Shown piece by piece: positions 35,171 to 39,943 of a stretch of DNA of 64,000 nucleotides. Position 1 is the stretch's first letter. Each line of letters starts with the position of its first letter. The stretch spans positions 1 through 64,000 of the forward strand of contig NZ_JAENIO010000019.1 in the NCBI RefSeq assembly GCF_016595415.1. The letters are read 5' to 3'. The notes beneath the pieces were generated by a model. That model was given only the letters and a program-made list of their open reading frames with translations. It did no database searches and was not told where the DNA came from. The translations under genes and the position numbers were made by a program. Origin of the DNA: Roseibacillus ishigakijimensis. GTDB taxonomy: Bacteria; Verrucomicrobiota; Verrucomicrobiia; Verrucomicrobiales; Akkermansiaceae.

Positions 35171-36229
35171 TCACTCCTCCACGGGCTGCCGAGCCCGAAA
35201 GACCGTGAATCGGGTGCCCAGATGTCCGGGATGGGTGAGAGTTTGAAACTGCCGGATGAACTCCGCATCCACCCGGCCTTCGCGACTCTTGAGCAGGGAG
35301 GTCGCCGTCCGGGTGAGAAAGTTCCCTTGCGTGCTGAGAGGAAGCACGGCGAGCCCTGCGGCCTCCGCCTCCTCACCCAGAGCGGTGAAGTCCACATGGG
35401 CCGTAATATCCCGCTCACCAGGACTTTCCAACGGGTCCTCTCCCGCCCGGTGGCGCCCATAGGTGCGCAGCGTGCCCGTGGTGCGCGAGGGGTGGTAGTA
35501 ATCAGCTCGCTCATAGCCGTAATCGAACAAGAGAATCTCCCCTCCCCGGAGAATCCCGCTCATTTCCCGCAAAAGAGGCTCCAGCGAAGGACGCAGCTCG
35601 GTCTCGTATCCCTCCGGCAAGCCCTCGGGCAACAAGGCCAGCCTCTCCGCCAATTCGCCTCCGGGCTCGCAGAGAGTGAAGGCCAGCTGGCCCTCCTCGA
35701 CGGTGACTCTTTTTTCCCACCAGCGGGACTGCTCCCGGCGCAACAGCCAGAAAGACAAGGCGTCGATCAACTCGTTGGCGATGACCATCCCGGGCTGGGG
35801 CGAGAGTTCTCCCGCCTCCGCCACGATCTCGCCTTGCGGAAACCGCTGCGCCAACAAGGCTCTTTTTTGCGACAAGGGCTCGACCACTGCCAGGCGGAGA
35901 GCTCTCGCGAAAGCCCCTCCAATCTCCTCGGCCCCCATCTGAATATCAGCCAGCAGATCTCCCTGCTCGCTCCCCCACTCCACCAAGCGGAAAGTCTCCG
36001 GCTCCCGCAACTCCCGCCAGACCTGGGAGACCTGCTCGGCAAGAATCCGTCCAAAGAGCGGACCTACCGAGACCGCGGTAAAGAAATCCCCGGCCCGGCC
36101 CGTGCGCACCCGCTCGGGGCGGGCGTAGTAACCGTCTTCGCCATCGTAAAGGACCTGATCAACATAGTTTCGAAACGAAAGAGGGCCGTTGGCTTCGATT
36201 TGAGCCATGACTTTCTCAGTCAAACGCAC
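35171..36229 (-). CDS. MidA/NDUFAF7-family SAM-dependent methyltransferase (DUF185), paralogue 1
   Basis: 352 residues from the GTG chosen because it yields LTEKVMAQIEANGPLSF, the family N-terminus; ATG 36208 is an alternative, and the longer open frame would overlap the divergent PBP start. DUF185 motifs: FRNYVDQVLYDGEDGYYA, TGRAGDFFTAVSVGPLFG, the SAM-site VEWGSEQGDLLADI, IANELIDALSF and LLFDYGYERADYYHPSR. The mitochondrial relative NDUFAF7 methylates an Arg of a complex I subunit; the bacterial substrate is not known. The SAM motif has E-W-G-S where G-P-G-T is more usual, unlike paralogue 2 at 47543. Gene pair with the convergent der is positional only. Confidence 0.85.
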   Translation of the reverse strand: MRLTEKVMAQIEANGPLSFRNYVDQVLYDGEDGYYARPERVRTGRAGDFFTAVSVGPLFGRILAEQVSQVWRELREPETFRLVEWGSEQGDLLADIQMGAEEIGGAFARALRLAVVEPLSQKRALLAQRFPQGEIVAEAGELSPQPGMVIANELIDALSFWLLRREQSRWWEKRVTVEEGQLAFTLCEPGGELAERLALLPEGLPEGYETELRPSLEPLLREMSGILRGGEILLFDYGYERADYYHPSRTTGTLRTYGRHRAGEDPLESPGERDITAHVDFTALGEEAEAAGLAVLPLSTQGNFLTRTATSLLKSREGRVDAEFIRQFQTLTHPGHLGTRFTVFRARQPVEE

Positions 36230-36302
36230 GGTTGCCCCCGTGCCTTCTCGCGGATATGATTCTGCGCCAGAGCGCTCGCTTGCGGGCTGCATTTTTCTCC
36301 TC

Positions 36303-38873
36303 ATGAACAAGAAGCGAAACCAACGCAAGGCCAAGCGCCCTTTTTACAAAAAGCCCGGCCTTTACCTTTTCCTCCTCTTCTGCGTGGTGGCCGGAGTGGT
36401 GGCCCTCGTTCTCTTTTACAATATTTACCTGAAGGACTTTCGTGAGCGGGCGCTGACCCAATACGATTACAGCAAGGTCGATGACGTGCAAATCCCCAGC
36501 CAAATCTTCGACCGCAACGGCCAGCTCATCGGCCGCTCCTACGAGGAAGAAAACCGCTCGCTGGTCACCATTGAAGAAATTCCCTCCGCTTTGGTGAACG
36601 CCCTCCTCGCCCAGGAAGACCAACGCTTCTGGGTTCACAAAGGCGTGGACTGGAAGGGCGTGTTGCGCGCGGTGTATCTCAATGCCAAGGCCGGAGAAAC
36701 CACCCAGGGAGCCAGCACCATCACCATGCAGCTGGCGCGCAACGCCTTCGACCTCCAGGAGGAAGCCAAGGAACGGGGCGAATCCGGCATCGAGCGAAAA
36801 ATCGTGGAAGCCTTTGTCGCCCTGGAGATTGAGCGACGCTACGTCGGCGAGGTGGAGGGGGACGAACGCCTCACCAATAAGCGAAAGTTGCTGGAAATGT
36901 ATCTCAACCGGGTGCCCTTTGGCAAAGGCTACTACGGGGTGCGGGCTGCGGCGCTGGGCTATTTTGGCAAGGAACCGGAAGATCTCACCCTCTCGGAATG
37001 CGCCTCCCTAGTTGCCTGCATCAAAAACCCCAGCCTGATCAATCCCATCAGCAACCCCGAGATCAACAAGGTGGCACGCAATCACGTCTTCACCCGCATG
37101 TTCGCGGAAGGCACCATCCCGACCAAAGAGGAATACGACCGCCTGGTAGAATCCCCGGTGGTGACCAATCCCCGCCCTTTGCGCCGGGGCACCTCCCATC
37201 TTTACAACAAAGTGGTCGAACTGACCCGCAGCATCGTCGGGGACGACGCCATGTCGCGGGGCGGATTCTCCATCTATACCACCATTGACAAGGCCACCCA
37301 GGACGCGGCCCATCGCGGCTTGCGCGAGCAGTTGCTGGAGATTGAAAATCGCGAAGGCTACCGCCACCCCCTCTTGGCTGGGTTTGACAAAGACAAGGAC
37401 CCCCAGCCCGAGTATCTGCGCGGGGCTGTGCTAATGATCGATAGCAGCACCGGAGCTGTGATCGCACACGTGGGAGGGCGGCAATTTGCCCACTCGCAGT
37501 ATGACTTTATCGAATCCGGCCGCCGGCCAACCGGAACGGCCTTCCTCCCCGTGGTCTACGCCGCAGCCTTCGAAAACCGCTTTTCCCCGGCCACCCTGCT
37601 CTCGGACCTACCCATGGATGCTCGCGAGGTCGCCCTGGGGGGGACGGAAGGTATCTTGGGCGAATGGGGCCCGGAGATGATGGACCCGGTCTATGAGGGT
37701 GACATCACCACCCGCAAGGCCCTGCGGGATTCGAAAATCGCAGCCACCGTGCGCCTGGGCGTGGAGGTCGGCATCGATACCGTAGCCCGGCAAGCCCGCA
37801 CCTTCGGCCTCACCCTCGAATCAGGCGAGATGCTGCCGCGCCTCCTTCTCGGCTGGGAGCAAAACTCGCTCTGGCGGCTCACCCGAGCCTACGCCTCCTT
37901 CGGGCGCAACGGACAGGCCCCCGAAGAACCCTACTACATCGAGAGCATTCGCGATATCGAAGGCAACGAAGTCTACCGCGCCCCCCGCACCAAGACTAAA
38001 ACGGTGACCTTCTCCTCCCCCGAGACCGCCTATCAGATTCATTCCATTCTCTCGGACAGCATCCAGCACGGCAATTTGCGGGAAAATGCCGCTCAACTCA
38101 CAGAACCCGAGTTCGTCACCGTGAAGACGGGCACCAATCACAACTTCTCCGACGCTTGGACCTTTGGTTACAATGGCAAGGTCACCTGCGGAGTGTGGGT
38201 CGGCTTCCTCTCCGGTCGCGAGCCCATTTACGACTACGCCTTTGCCAAAGACACCGCCTTCCCCATCTGGGCCCAGACGATGAATGCCGCAGCGGGCAAT
38301 TTTCCGGGTCAGAAACTGGCCCCCCCTGCTGGCTTGGCCGCCGTCTCTCTCTGCGAGCGCTCGGGCCGTCGCCTCACCCGCTACTGCTACGACAGCGTGT
38401 TCGACCCCGAGCACGGTCTCAGCCTGGCCTCGACCTCCTATCAAGAATATCTCCGCCCCGAACAAGCAGAAGTCGGGGTCTGCGTGGTGCACGGCAAAGG
38501 GGGAGTCACTCCCTCCGAAGAGTTCGCCCCCGACACCGAGGACCTCCGCCAGCGACAACTCAATGTCCCCCCCCTGACCGTGCGCAGCAAGGCCCTCACG
38601 GGGCAAGATCCCTACGGAGCCCTCATCCCGGAAGTGAGTGAGGAACCCGTGCCCGAGCCGAAACCGGAACCCGACCTGGCCGAGAACGAAACCCCCACTG
38701 AAGGAACTGAGAACGAATCCGTCAAGGAACCCGTAGCGCCGCTTCCGGAAGATCCCGCAGCGAGGGTTCGACACCAGCAGGAATTCACCGTAAAAGAATC
38801 CCGCCAGGGCGAGCGGGAGGCCACCATCCGGCTCCGTCCTCCCCAACGCATCGAGATTTCCGACGACCTATGA
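36303..38873 (+). CDS. Class A penicillin-binding protein with apparently inactive transpeptidase domain
   Basis: 856 residues: a basic cytoplasmic tail, one membrane anchor (about 20-42), then a complete GT51 glycosyltransferase with Glu105 in AQEDQRFWVHKG, QGASTITMQLARN, RKIVEAFVALEIER and LEMYLNRVPFGKGYYG. This domain should polymerise lipid II. The transpeptidase domain is present (about 330-680) but its SxxK site reads T412-A-F-L415 in RPTGTAFLPVVYA, so both the Ser nucleophile and the Lys are gone. The SxN site reads S477-K-I. Only KTGT (608-611) is kept. The DNA at these sites is clear and the frame is intact. A long Pro/Glu-rich C-terminal tail follows. The protein probably works as a monofunctional glycosyltransferase with a structural pseudo-transpeptidase. 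The next gene overlaps its stop by 4 nt. Confidence 0.9.
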   Translation: MNKKRNQRKAKRPFYKKPGLYLFLLFCVVAGVVALVLFYNIYLKDFRERALTQYDYSKVDDVQIPSQIFDRNGQLIGRSYEEENRSLVTIEEIPSALVNALLAQEDQRFWVHKGVDWKGVLRAVYLNAKAGETTQGASTITMQLARNAFDLQEEAKERGESGIERKIVEAFVALEIERRYVGEVEGDERLTNKRKLLEMYLNRVPFGKGYYGVRAAALGYFGKEPEDLTLSECASLVACIKNPSLINPISNPEINKVARNHVFTRMFAEGTIPTKEEYDRLVESPVVTNPRPLRRGTSHLYNKVVELTRSIVGDDAMSRGGFSIYTTIDKATQDAAHRGLREQLLEIENREGYRHPLLAGFDKDKDPQPEYLRGAVLMIDSSTGAVIAHVGGRQFAHSQYDFIESGRRPTGTAFLPVVYAAAFENRFSPATLLSDLPMDAREVALGGTEGILGEWGPEMMDPVYEGDITTRKALRDSKIAATVRLGVEVGIDTVARQARTFGLTLESGEMLPRLLLGWEQNSLWRLTRAYASFGRNGQAPEEPYYIESIRDIEGNEVYRAPRTKTKTVTFSSPETAYQIHSILSDSIQHGNLRENAAQLTEPEFVTVKTGTNHNFSDAWTFGYNGKVTCGVWVGFLSGREPIYDYAFAKDTAFPIWAQTMNAAAGNFPGQKLAPPAGLAAVSLCERSGRRLTRYCYDSVFDPEHGLSLASTSYQEYLRPEQAEVGVCVVHGKGGVTPSEEFAPDTEDLRQRQLNVPPLTVRSKALTGQDPYGALIPEVSEEPVPEPKPEPDLAENETPTEGTENESVKEPVAPLPEDPAARVRHQQEFTVKESRQGEREATIRLRPPQRIEISDDL

Positions 38874-39943
38874 GCGATTCGCAGCGAACTCCTCTCTCCG
38901 CCCGGGGAGCCTGGGCTCCCTTTCTCTGCCCTTTGTGCCGGGGGCTTTTCCGGGCCCGCACCGAACAATGCGGACCCATGACCTGTCCGCATTGCCAGGA
39001 AAGGGTCGAGGTCCCTTTCACCCCCGAGGCCCCGGCCGAAGAAATCCAACCGCTGCAAAGAGAACCGCTCCCGACCCCACCCCCAGCCGAGGAGACCTGG
39101 GCCACGCCATCCCCAGCGGCCGAAAAAGCCAGCAGCCGTGGCCTCATTCTGGCCGGGCTCTTCGTCTTTTCCCTCCTCGTCGTGGTCGGCTTTGTCCTCC
39201 TCTCACAACGGGAACCCCGGGCCGCCGAGACGGGCGAAAAAAAGTTTCGCGCCGACCGCTTCGAGACCCTGGCTGCAGATGATTCCCCCATCCCCGGAGA
39301 TGCCCTCCTGCAACTGACCAGCAAGGATATCGAAGAAGCAAAGGAAGCCGCTCTCGCCTTCCTGAAAGTGGAGGAAATTGCCCACCTGCGCCCTCTCATC
39401 CGCGATCCGGAACGAGTGATGCCACTCATCGAAAGCTATTATCAGGACCAAGCCTACCAGGCTTACCCCACCGCAAAAATCGAAGACACCGGCCAAGCGC
39501 AAGCAGCCAAACACTTCGCCAGCTTCTCCATCATCCTTCCAGATTACCACACCCGCCCCATCGCGGTAGAAGCCACGGAAAACGGCTACCTGGTCGATTG
39601 GGAGAGCTGGGTCGGACATGGCGAACGCCCTTGGAAGGAATTCATGGCCGAGAAAGTCACCGCCCCCACCCGGATGCGCGTGACCATCCAACGCTCCACC
39701 TACTACAACTACGACTTCCAAGATGAGCGCCGTTGGCGGTGCTACGAACTGATGCGCACCGTGGACGAACCGGTCCTTTTCGCCTACCTGCCCGCTGAAT
39801 CCGAGCTGCGCCGGGAGCTGCCTGGCGCGGAAGATCCGGCCCAAACCTACGTGGTCACCATTCGCTATCCCGACACCCCCTCCTCCGACAATCAAGTCCT
39901 CCTGAGCGACGTCATCCAACAAGGCTGGGTTCTCGGCCTCTAA
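38870..39943 (+). CDS. Zinc-ribbon single-pass membrane protein coupled to the PBP
   Basis: 357 residues. An N-terminal double-Cys zinc ribbon (LCPLCRGLF ... MTCPHCQERV, about 19-47) is cytoplasmic. A Pro/Glu-rich linker precedes one membrane helix (GLILAGLFVFSLLVVVGFVL, about 88-108). An extracytoplasmic domain of about 240 residues follows, with repeated acidic segments and the pattern VDWESWVGHGERPWKEFM; I do not recognise it. The ATG overlaps the PBP stop (ATGA), so the two are translationally coupled and likely work together at the cell wall. Possible roles such as PBP activator or sensor are inference from context. Confidence 0.8.
   Translation: MSDSQRTPLSARGAWAPFLCPLCRGLFRARTEQCGPMTCPHCQERVEVPFTPEAPAEEIQPLQREPLPTPPPAEETWATPSPAAEKASSRGLILAGLFVFSLLVVVGFVLLSQREPRAAETGEKKFRADRFETLAADDSPIPGDALLQLTSKDIEEAKEAALAFLKVEEIAHLRPLIRDPERVMPLIESYYQDQAYQAYPTAKIEDTGQAQAAKHFASFSIILPDYHTRPIAVEATENGYLVDWESWVGHGERPWKEFMAEKVTAPTRMRVTIQRSTYYNYDFQDERRWRCYELMRTVDEPVLFAYLPAESELRRELPGAEDPAQTYVVTIRYPDTPSSDNQVLLSDVIQQGWVLGL

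Follow-up and report, generated by a model that had tools for sequence, protein, structure and literature searches.

A verrucomicrobial lineage of class A penicillin-binding proteins whose transpeptidase domain is probably retained as a non-catalytic module

Introduction

Class A penicillin-binding proteins (PBPs) are commonly regarded as enzymes with two synthetic activities and as targets of beta-lactams. Here we analyse a class A PBP gene of the verrucomicrobium Roseibacillus ishigakijimensis, found in the first 64,000 nucleotides of contig NZ_JAENIO010000019.1 (this whole stretch is called the window). The nearest described systems are the PBP1A family of class A PBPs (PDB 4oon and 3udf; TIGR02074) and the monofunctional glycosyltransferases (GT) of family GT51 (TIGR02070; PDB 3vmq). 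The window protein resembles the former in domain order, N-terminal hydrophobic helix, GT51 motifs and the fold of the transpeptidase (TP) domain, but its SxxK and SxN motifs are destroyed and a GEWG loop replaces the WxPxN loop; it scores 402.9 bits with TIGR02074, whose cut-off is 508.75. With the latter it shares the proposed function, glycan polymerisation without transpeptidation, but it retains a full-length TP domain and scores 102.4 with TIGR02070, below the cut-off of 182.65. The gene probably encodes a glycan polymerase whose TP domain stays as a non-catalytic module.

Akkermansia is among the bacteria that retain a class A PBP according to a 2021 survey, the accessible passages of which do not discuss the catalytic residues of this protein (PMC8406291). 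Verrucomicrobium spinosum, for which targeted mutagenesis is available, has canonical peptidoglycan with dimeric muropeptides, and the accessible part of that report lists COG0768 PBPs only (PMC12283558). We found no description of a lineage with a pseudo-TP domain in the open-access literature, subscription journals being mostly outside the search; within that literature, the lineage is apparently an undescribed form of class A PBP.

Results

The gene and its parts are as follows.

36303..38873, + strand: class A PBP of 856 residues with a TP domain without catalytic residues (open frame; Pfam GT51 and TP domains; alignment to 146 further orthologues of distinct sequence)
36519..37100, + strand: GT51 glycosyltransferase domain (PF00912), residues 73-266, Pfam score about 186-190.3 bits
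36615-36617, + strand: E105, GT51 glutamate
36807-36809, + strand: E169, GT51 glutamate
37422..38207, + strand: TP domain (PF00905), residues 374-635, fold kept (pseudo-TP; Pfam and predicted model, best structural matches class A PBPs)
37536..37547, + strand: T412-A-F-L415 where SxxK is expected (motif reading and orthologue alignment)
37617..37676, + strand: loop D439 ... G450-x2-G453-E-W-G-P-E458 between the SxxK and SxN sites (orthologue alignment)
37731..37739, + strand: S477-K-I where SxN is expected (motif reading)
38124..38135, + strand: KTGT retained, with K608 (motif reading)

Missing from the TP half are the nucleophile, the Lys that acts as general base and the Asn of SxN. The catalytic residues of the GT51 half, E105 and E169, are both in place; we assign them this role on the assumption that they act as elsewhere in GT51. 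The first-pass annotation of the window had read TAFL, SKI and KTGT in an undamaged 856-codon frame with an intact GT51 half; all of these readings hold, the frame runs without a stop, and the codons of the three motifs lie within 37500-38140. A motif scan of all 856 residues found no SxxK, hence no shifted copy of the motif. In the alignment with PDB 4oon, which we take to be PBP1A of Pseudomonas aeruginosa, GSSFKP stands opposite GTAFLP without gaps and the acylated Ser falls on T412, so the register of the motif is safe. The protein thus has the two Glu of GT51, a TP fold C-terminal to GT51 and the KTG of a class A PBP, with TAFL and SKI in place of the other two motifs, and the TP domain sets it apart from a monofunctional GT51 enzyme. 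Its PF00905 match is above the cut-off of 22.1 bits yet weak (about 37.5-40.5 bits).

The predicted model of the protein, made with 19 sequences, has a class A PBP fold with a mean predicted local distance difference test score (pLDDT) of 75. Within the TP domain the ten-residue mean is mostly 73-96, falling to 65 at 391-400 and below 50 at 441-460. PDB 4oon superposes on the model over 384 residues at 2.5 Å with Z 45.3, and PBP1b and PBP1a entries ranked at the top of a Foldseek search. Among the structure and sequence matches was also PDB 7u4h, titled Pbp1a from Chlamydia trachomatis, though Chlamydia-type members of the Planctomycetes-Verrucomicrobia-Chlamydiae (PVC) group are classed as lacking class A PBPs in the accessible passages of the survey (PMC8406291); this conflict is possibly a matter of labelling.

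Of 98 relative genomes searched, 93 had a match on the scale of an orthologue (E 1.0e-129 or better), and the motifs were read in all 93. In this search G017, G030, G065, G078 and G084 gave weaker, paralogue-scale matches only, and a probable orthologue of G065 surfaced with another query. After further members of the class and the family were added and identical cores merged, there were 147 distinct orthologue sequences. Excluded from this count, by the trees or by score, were 28 locus ids (intact paralogues, other class A PBPs, a third GT51 lineage and refetched duplicates); scores were the basis for including L048, L120 (which ends before KTG) and the rows that thinning had removed from the trees.

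Thr occupies position 412 in 143 of the 147 orthologues and Ser in four. Position 415 is Lys in 22, and the 125 others have Leu (46), Phe (37), Thr (32), Ile (3), Val (3), His (2), Met (1) or Gln (1). GT51 Glu105 and Glu169 are present in 147/147, and all 78 sequences of the window's family lack both Ser and Lys. The orthologues form a graded series, namely four with SxxK, all from genus g28 (L106, L187-L189), 18 with TxxK (L103, L108, L129, L164, L168, L190, L195, L197-L200, L203-L206, L208, L212 and L214) and 125 without the Lys. Judged by the aligned motifs, the loss is graded and lineage-wide, and the annotation's alternative that orthologues might all be intact does not apply, as 143 lack the Ser. 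SxN and KTG accompany TxxK in 16 of the 18, from several genera; as an observation of its own, TxxK class A PBPs are candidate Thr-nucleophile or arrested transpeptidases. Among the control rows 24/27 have SxxK, and the three exceptions come from a distinct lineage of degenerate GT51 proteins, a further member of which, L001, was kept out of the control; SxxK is present in 9/9 full-length class A PBPs from other phyla.

Thr412 is found in 125/125 Lys-less sequences, where free drift would have produced variation, and Lys608 is retained in 120 of the 123 that cover its position; Ser477 is replaced by Gly in 26 of the 125. At the level of the class, 67 of 113 genomes gave no match to the window protein, with the limit that one query was used and a miss is no proof of absence. 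These misses agree with the absence of class A PBPs reported for parts of the PVC group in the accessible passages of the survey (PMC8406291).

The loop between the SxxK and SxN sites is specific to the clade, with the common form IGGxxGILGEWGxE. GEW occurs in 137/147 orthologues, the remainder having variants such as AEYG, GEFG and GAWG, and neither LGEW nor GEWG was found in 37 control proteins. At the same place WxPx[ND] occurs in 13/19 intact paralogues versus 1/147 orthologues. Apart from Thr412, the TP columns that are invariant and specific to the clade fall in the loop, E454 and E458 for example. A relaxed loop pattern fits 4/4 SxxK, 18/18 TxxK and 102/125 Lys-less members.

The median ratio of non-synonymous to synonymous substitution rates (dN/dS) was 0.044 in the GT half and 0.055 in the TP half over 118 clade pairs (80-98.5% identical, plus the window pairs); these are the pairs with dS under 2 among 147, all from the clade and without an intact control, some of them from one genome fetched twice. 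Relaxed selection of a pseudogene is not seen in these ratios, and by this measure purifying selection acts on the TP domain in close relatives. Mean TP identity is 0.425 across 93 clade representatives. The earlier proposal of a selected pseudoenzyme, not a decaying gene, gains support from the low TP dN/dS of close clade pairs and from the conserved clade-specific loop.

Three quick trees were built after removal of the motif columns. The first left out the window duplicate L009, the third GT51 lineage (L001 and the second frames of L144, L145 and L148) and the short L048 and L120, and was thinned at 85% identity from 154 to 118 rows (93 clade, 19 intact, 6 outgroup), which also serve for the comparison of TP and GT identity. 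The second left out L182-L185, L112 and L114 as well and was thinned at 82% from 184 to 130 rows, and the third used 63 hand-picked rows of those 130. In all three the orthologues form one clade apart from the intact verrucomicrobial paralogues, with support of 99, 99 and 97 in the Shimodaira-Hasegawa-like approximate likelihood ratio test (SH-aLRT).

On these trees the presence of Lys at 415 changes at least 8-9 times, and gain and loss are indistinguishable because only changes are counted. Ser/Thr at 412 needs a minimum of two changes. This minimum does not settle a single Ser to Thr origin either way, since one clade of all Thr rows was not rejected by the approximately unbiased (AU) test (p 0.28); the trees are thus compatible with a single event with g28 branching first, and this SxxK genus may have kept the ancestral state. 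The relaxed loop pattern fits SxxK, TxxK and most Lys-less members, so we infer that the new GEWG loop came before the change of Ser to Thr, which would have been followed by loss of the Lys in several lineages, along with loss of SxN.

The window genome is available as a draft of 4.1 Mb with 95% completeness; of the named relatives, Roseibacillus persicicus is the closest (72% identity in the best segment). Three proteins of the window genome match GT51, the window protein and the two below.

C112, 798-residue frame: class A PBP with GT51 and TP domains, SLFK, SRN and KTGT intact
Contig C115 (L001), 535-2271, - strand: third GT51 protein, 579-residue frame, GT51 200 bits, TP remnant 20.9 bits (below the cut-off of 22.1)

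C112 shares both domains with the window protein and is 37% identical to it, but its motifs are intact and it falls in a separate clade; the second class A PBP with an intact SxxK that the annotation had raised is therefore present in the genome. The C115 protein is like the window protein a GT51 protein with a non-catalytic TP domain, but this domain is much reduced, with GPAFQP at the SxxK site and no SxN or KTG recognised, and its similarity to the window protein is weaker. Rows like that of C115 (GAAFE, GSVMT and GSIFT in L145, L144 and L148) come from loci that also carry an intact class A PBP. In addition, three class B PBPs with SxxK kept (STFK, STFK and STTK) and 11 YkuD-domain matches, candidate L,D-transpeptidases, were found, so the cell has capacity for cross-linking elsewhere, given these enzymes and the intact C112.

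Reduced genomes offer the strongest genomic argument for glycan polymerisation by the protein with the dead TP domain. In two drafts of genus g5 (G007 and G019, 1.5-1.6 Mb, 90% complete) it is the only GT51 protein detected (GTAFIP, KTST), next to three class B PBPs per genome, all of which carry SxxK and KTG. G006 also has one GT51 protein, but is 69% complete.

Two neighbouring genes were followed across the loci.

35171..36334, - strand: divergent upstream gene, PF02636 S-adenosylmethionine-dependent methyltransferase (Pfam; synteny anchor for orthology)
38870..39943, + strand: downstream gene of 357 residues with a CxxC...CxxC N-terminus, a hydrophobic helix and a C-terminal domain, in ATGA overlap with the PBP stop

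The methyltransferase gene lies upstream on the opposite strand near the PBP gene at 87/134 loci, including that of the SxxK member L106; nine of the 47 misses have fewer than 700 bases upstream, and many others are from genus g3 or other orders. The overlap with the downstream gene, already described in the annotation, is real, its ATG at 38870 sharing ATGA (38870-38873) with the stop at 38871-38873. The predicted helix 93-112 of its product reads as a membrane span, and DWESWV in the C-terminal domain is invariant in nine aligned sequences. At E 0.001 neither Pfam nor NCBIfam matched the product, and its model matched no PDB fold (best 0.096), so that these comparisons give no basis for a functional assignment. 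Relatives of this gene lie directly 3' of the PBP gene on the same strand at 48/65 loci of the window's family (L010-L049 and L069-L093, some genomes counted twice), with three of the 17 misses at contig ends, and in 5/12 further genus-g3 genomes, one of them weakly. Since the family is multi-copy, with more than one match in most of 58 genomes searched and up to 27 in G074, a dedicated partner of the PBP, which the annotation had called sensor-like, is not established, and the gene is a frequent neighbour and at most a candidate partner. The family of 38870-39943 comprises verrucomicrobial putative membrane proteins with an N-terminal CxxC-CxxC, one hydrophobic helix and DWESWV.

Discussion

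We consider it likely that Verrucomicrobiae have an old lineage of class A PBPs, the window protein among them, whose TP domain has been retired as an enzyme and kept as a module. The GT51 half of the window protein would work in the periplasm, making glycan strands from lipid II, and cross-linking would be left to other enzymes, namely C112, the three class B PBPs and the 11 YkuD candidates. The pseudo-TP domain could have a structural role, offer a docking surface or still hold the stem peptide at a non-catalytic site. From its motifs, the protein is predicted not to bind penicillin. Several observations weigh against this view. The clade is not uniformly dead, as the four g28 orthologues retain all three TP motifs, and KTG itself is eroded in some orthologues (KGGT, KGGS, KPGT, KTST, QTST, YNGT). 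The dN/dS ratios of the clade have no control, as intact paralogues yielded no pair within the usable range, and the window's own value is rough because dS in its pairs is 1.1 or higher and in one case saturated. At GT identity of 0.5-0.6, TP identity averages 0.41 in the clade versus 0.47 in intact paralogues, which indicates some relaxation on the TP half; by the measures taken here, it is mild and far from neutrality. G007 and G019 are draft assemblies, and the absence of a second GT51 protein from them is not proved, while in G017 (96% complete) the sole GT51 protein detected has SxxK and KTG, so that the protein with the dead TP domain can be absent.

A special case of the reading just given, which we regard as possible but somewhat doubtful, is that the TP domain was repurposed as a ligand-binding or regulatory module, in which Thr412, Ser477 and the Lys of KTG form an unreactive binding site for the stem peptide or the pentapeptide of lipid II and the new loop links binding to a partner or to the GT half. 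This tentative scheme, in which the dead domain binds stem peptide or docks a partner through the GEWG loop and controls glycan polymerisation, is kept because the conservation of Thr412 and Lys608 exceeds what folding alone obviously needs; the strongly conserved loop between the active-site motifs and the membrane protein gene co-located in much of the window's family also favour it, but KTG and SxN degrade in several lineages, Ser477 is often Gly, and both ligand and partner are putative, the neighbouring gene being missing downstream at 17 of the 65 loci and its family having other copies. If the TP domain were instead dispensable, kept by co-folding with GT51 and on the way to truncation, the C115 protein, which has lost much of its TP domain, might represent the end of the process, and the lower TP identity at matched GT identity would fit. 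Such slow decay is nevertheless unlikely in view of the TP dN/dS, the mean TP identity over the 93 representatives and the specific conserved loop, and the shortest orthologues, L048 and L120 (591 residues each), run into contig ends.

The proposal that Thr412 is an unconventional nucleophile, with which the domain cross-links or cleaves peptides using a different base, draws on the 16 TxxK orthologues with SxN and KTG in several genera. For the window protein it is very improbable, as this protein and all 78 members of its family lack Lys415 and it has also lost the SxN Asn, which leaves no recognisable base. Least credible of all is a one-strain mutation, an assembly error or a pseudogene, for which only the rarity of the motif speaks. 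The change is common to 77 other sequences of the family and to 143/147 orthologues, in open frames with dN/dS far below 1; a one-strain mutation or pseudogene is refuted by the orthologues and dN/dS, and because the orthologues share the change, chance and sequencing error are excluded.

A GH20 enzyme of a genus-g3 genome (G038) aligns over 468 residues and with few differences to PDB 6je8, presumably from A. muciniphila; genus g3 is probably Akkermansia. A whole lineage, probably including Akkermansia, would then carry a class A PBP with a cross-linking site that is without chemistry yet guarded by evolution. If the protein is indeed a glycosyltransferase with a pseudo-TP domain, beta-lactams should not acylate it and moenomycin should inhibit it, and the lineage would provide a natural test of non-catalytic roles of TP domains as well as a graded set of orthologues for studies of how an enzyme is retired. 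If the dead domain is a regulator, the clade would preserve SxxK, TxxK and TxxL/F as living steps from a transpeptidase to a regulator, with TxxK members possibly using a Thr nucleophile.

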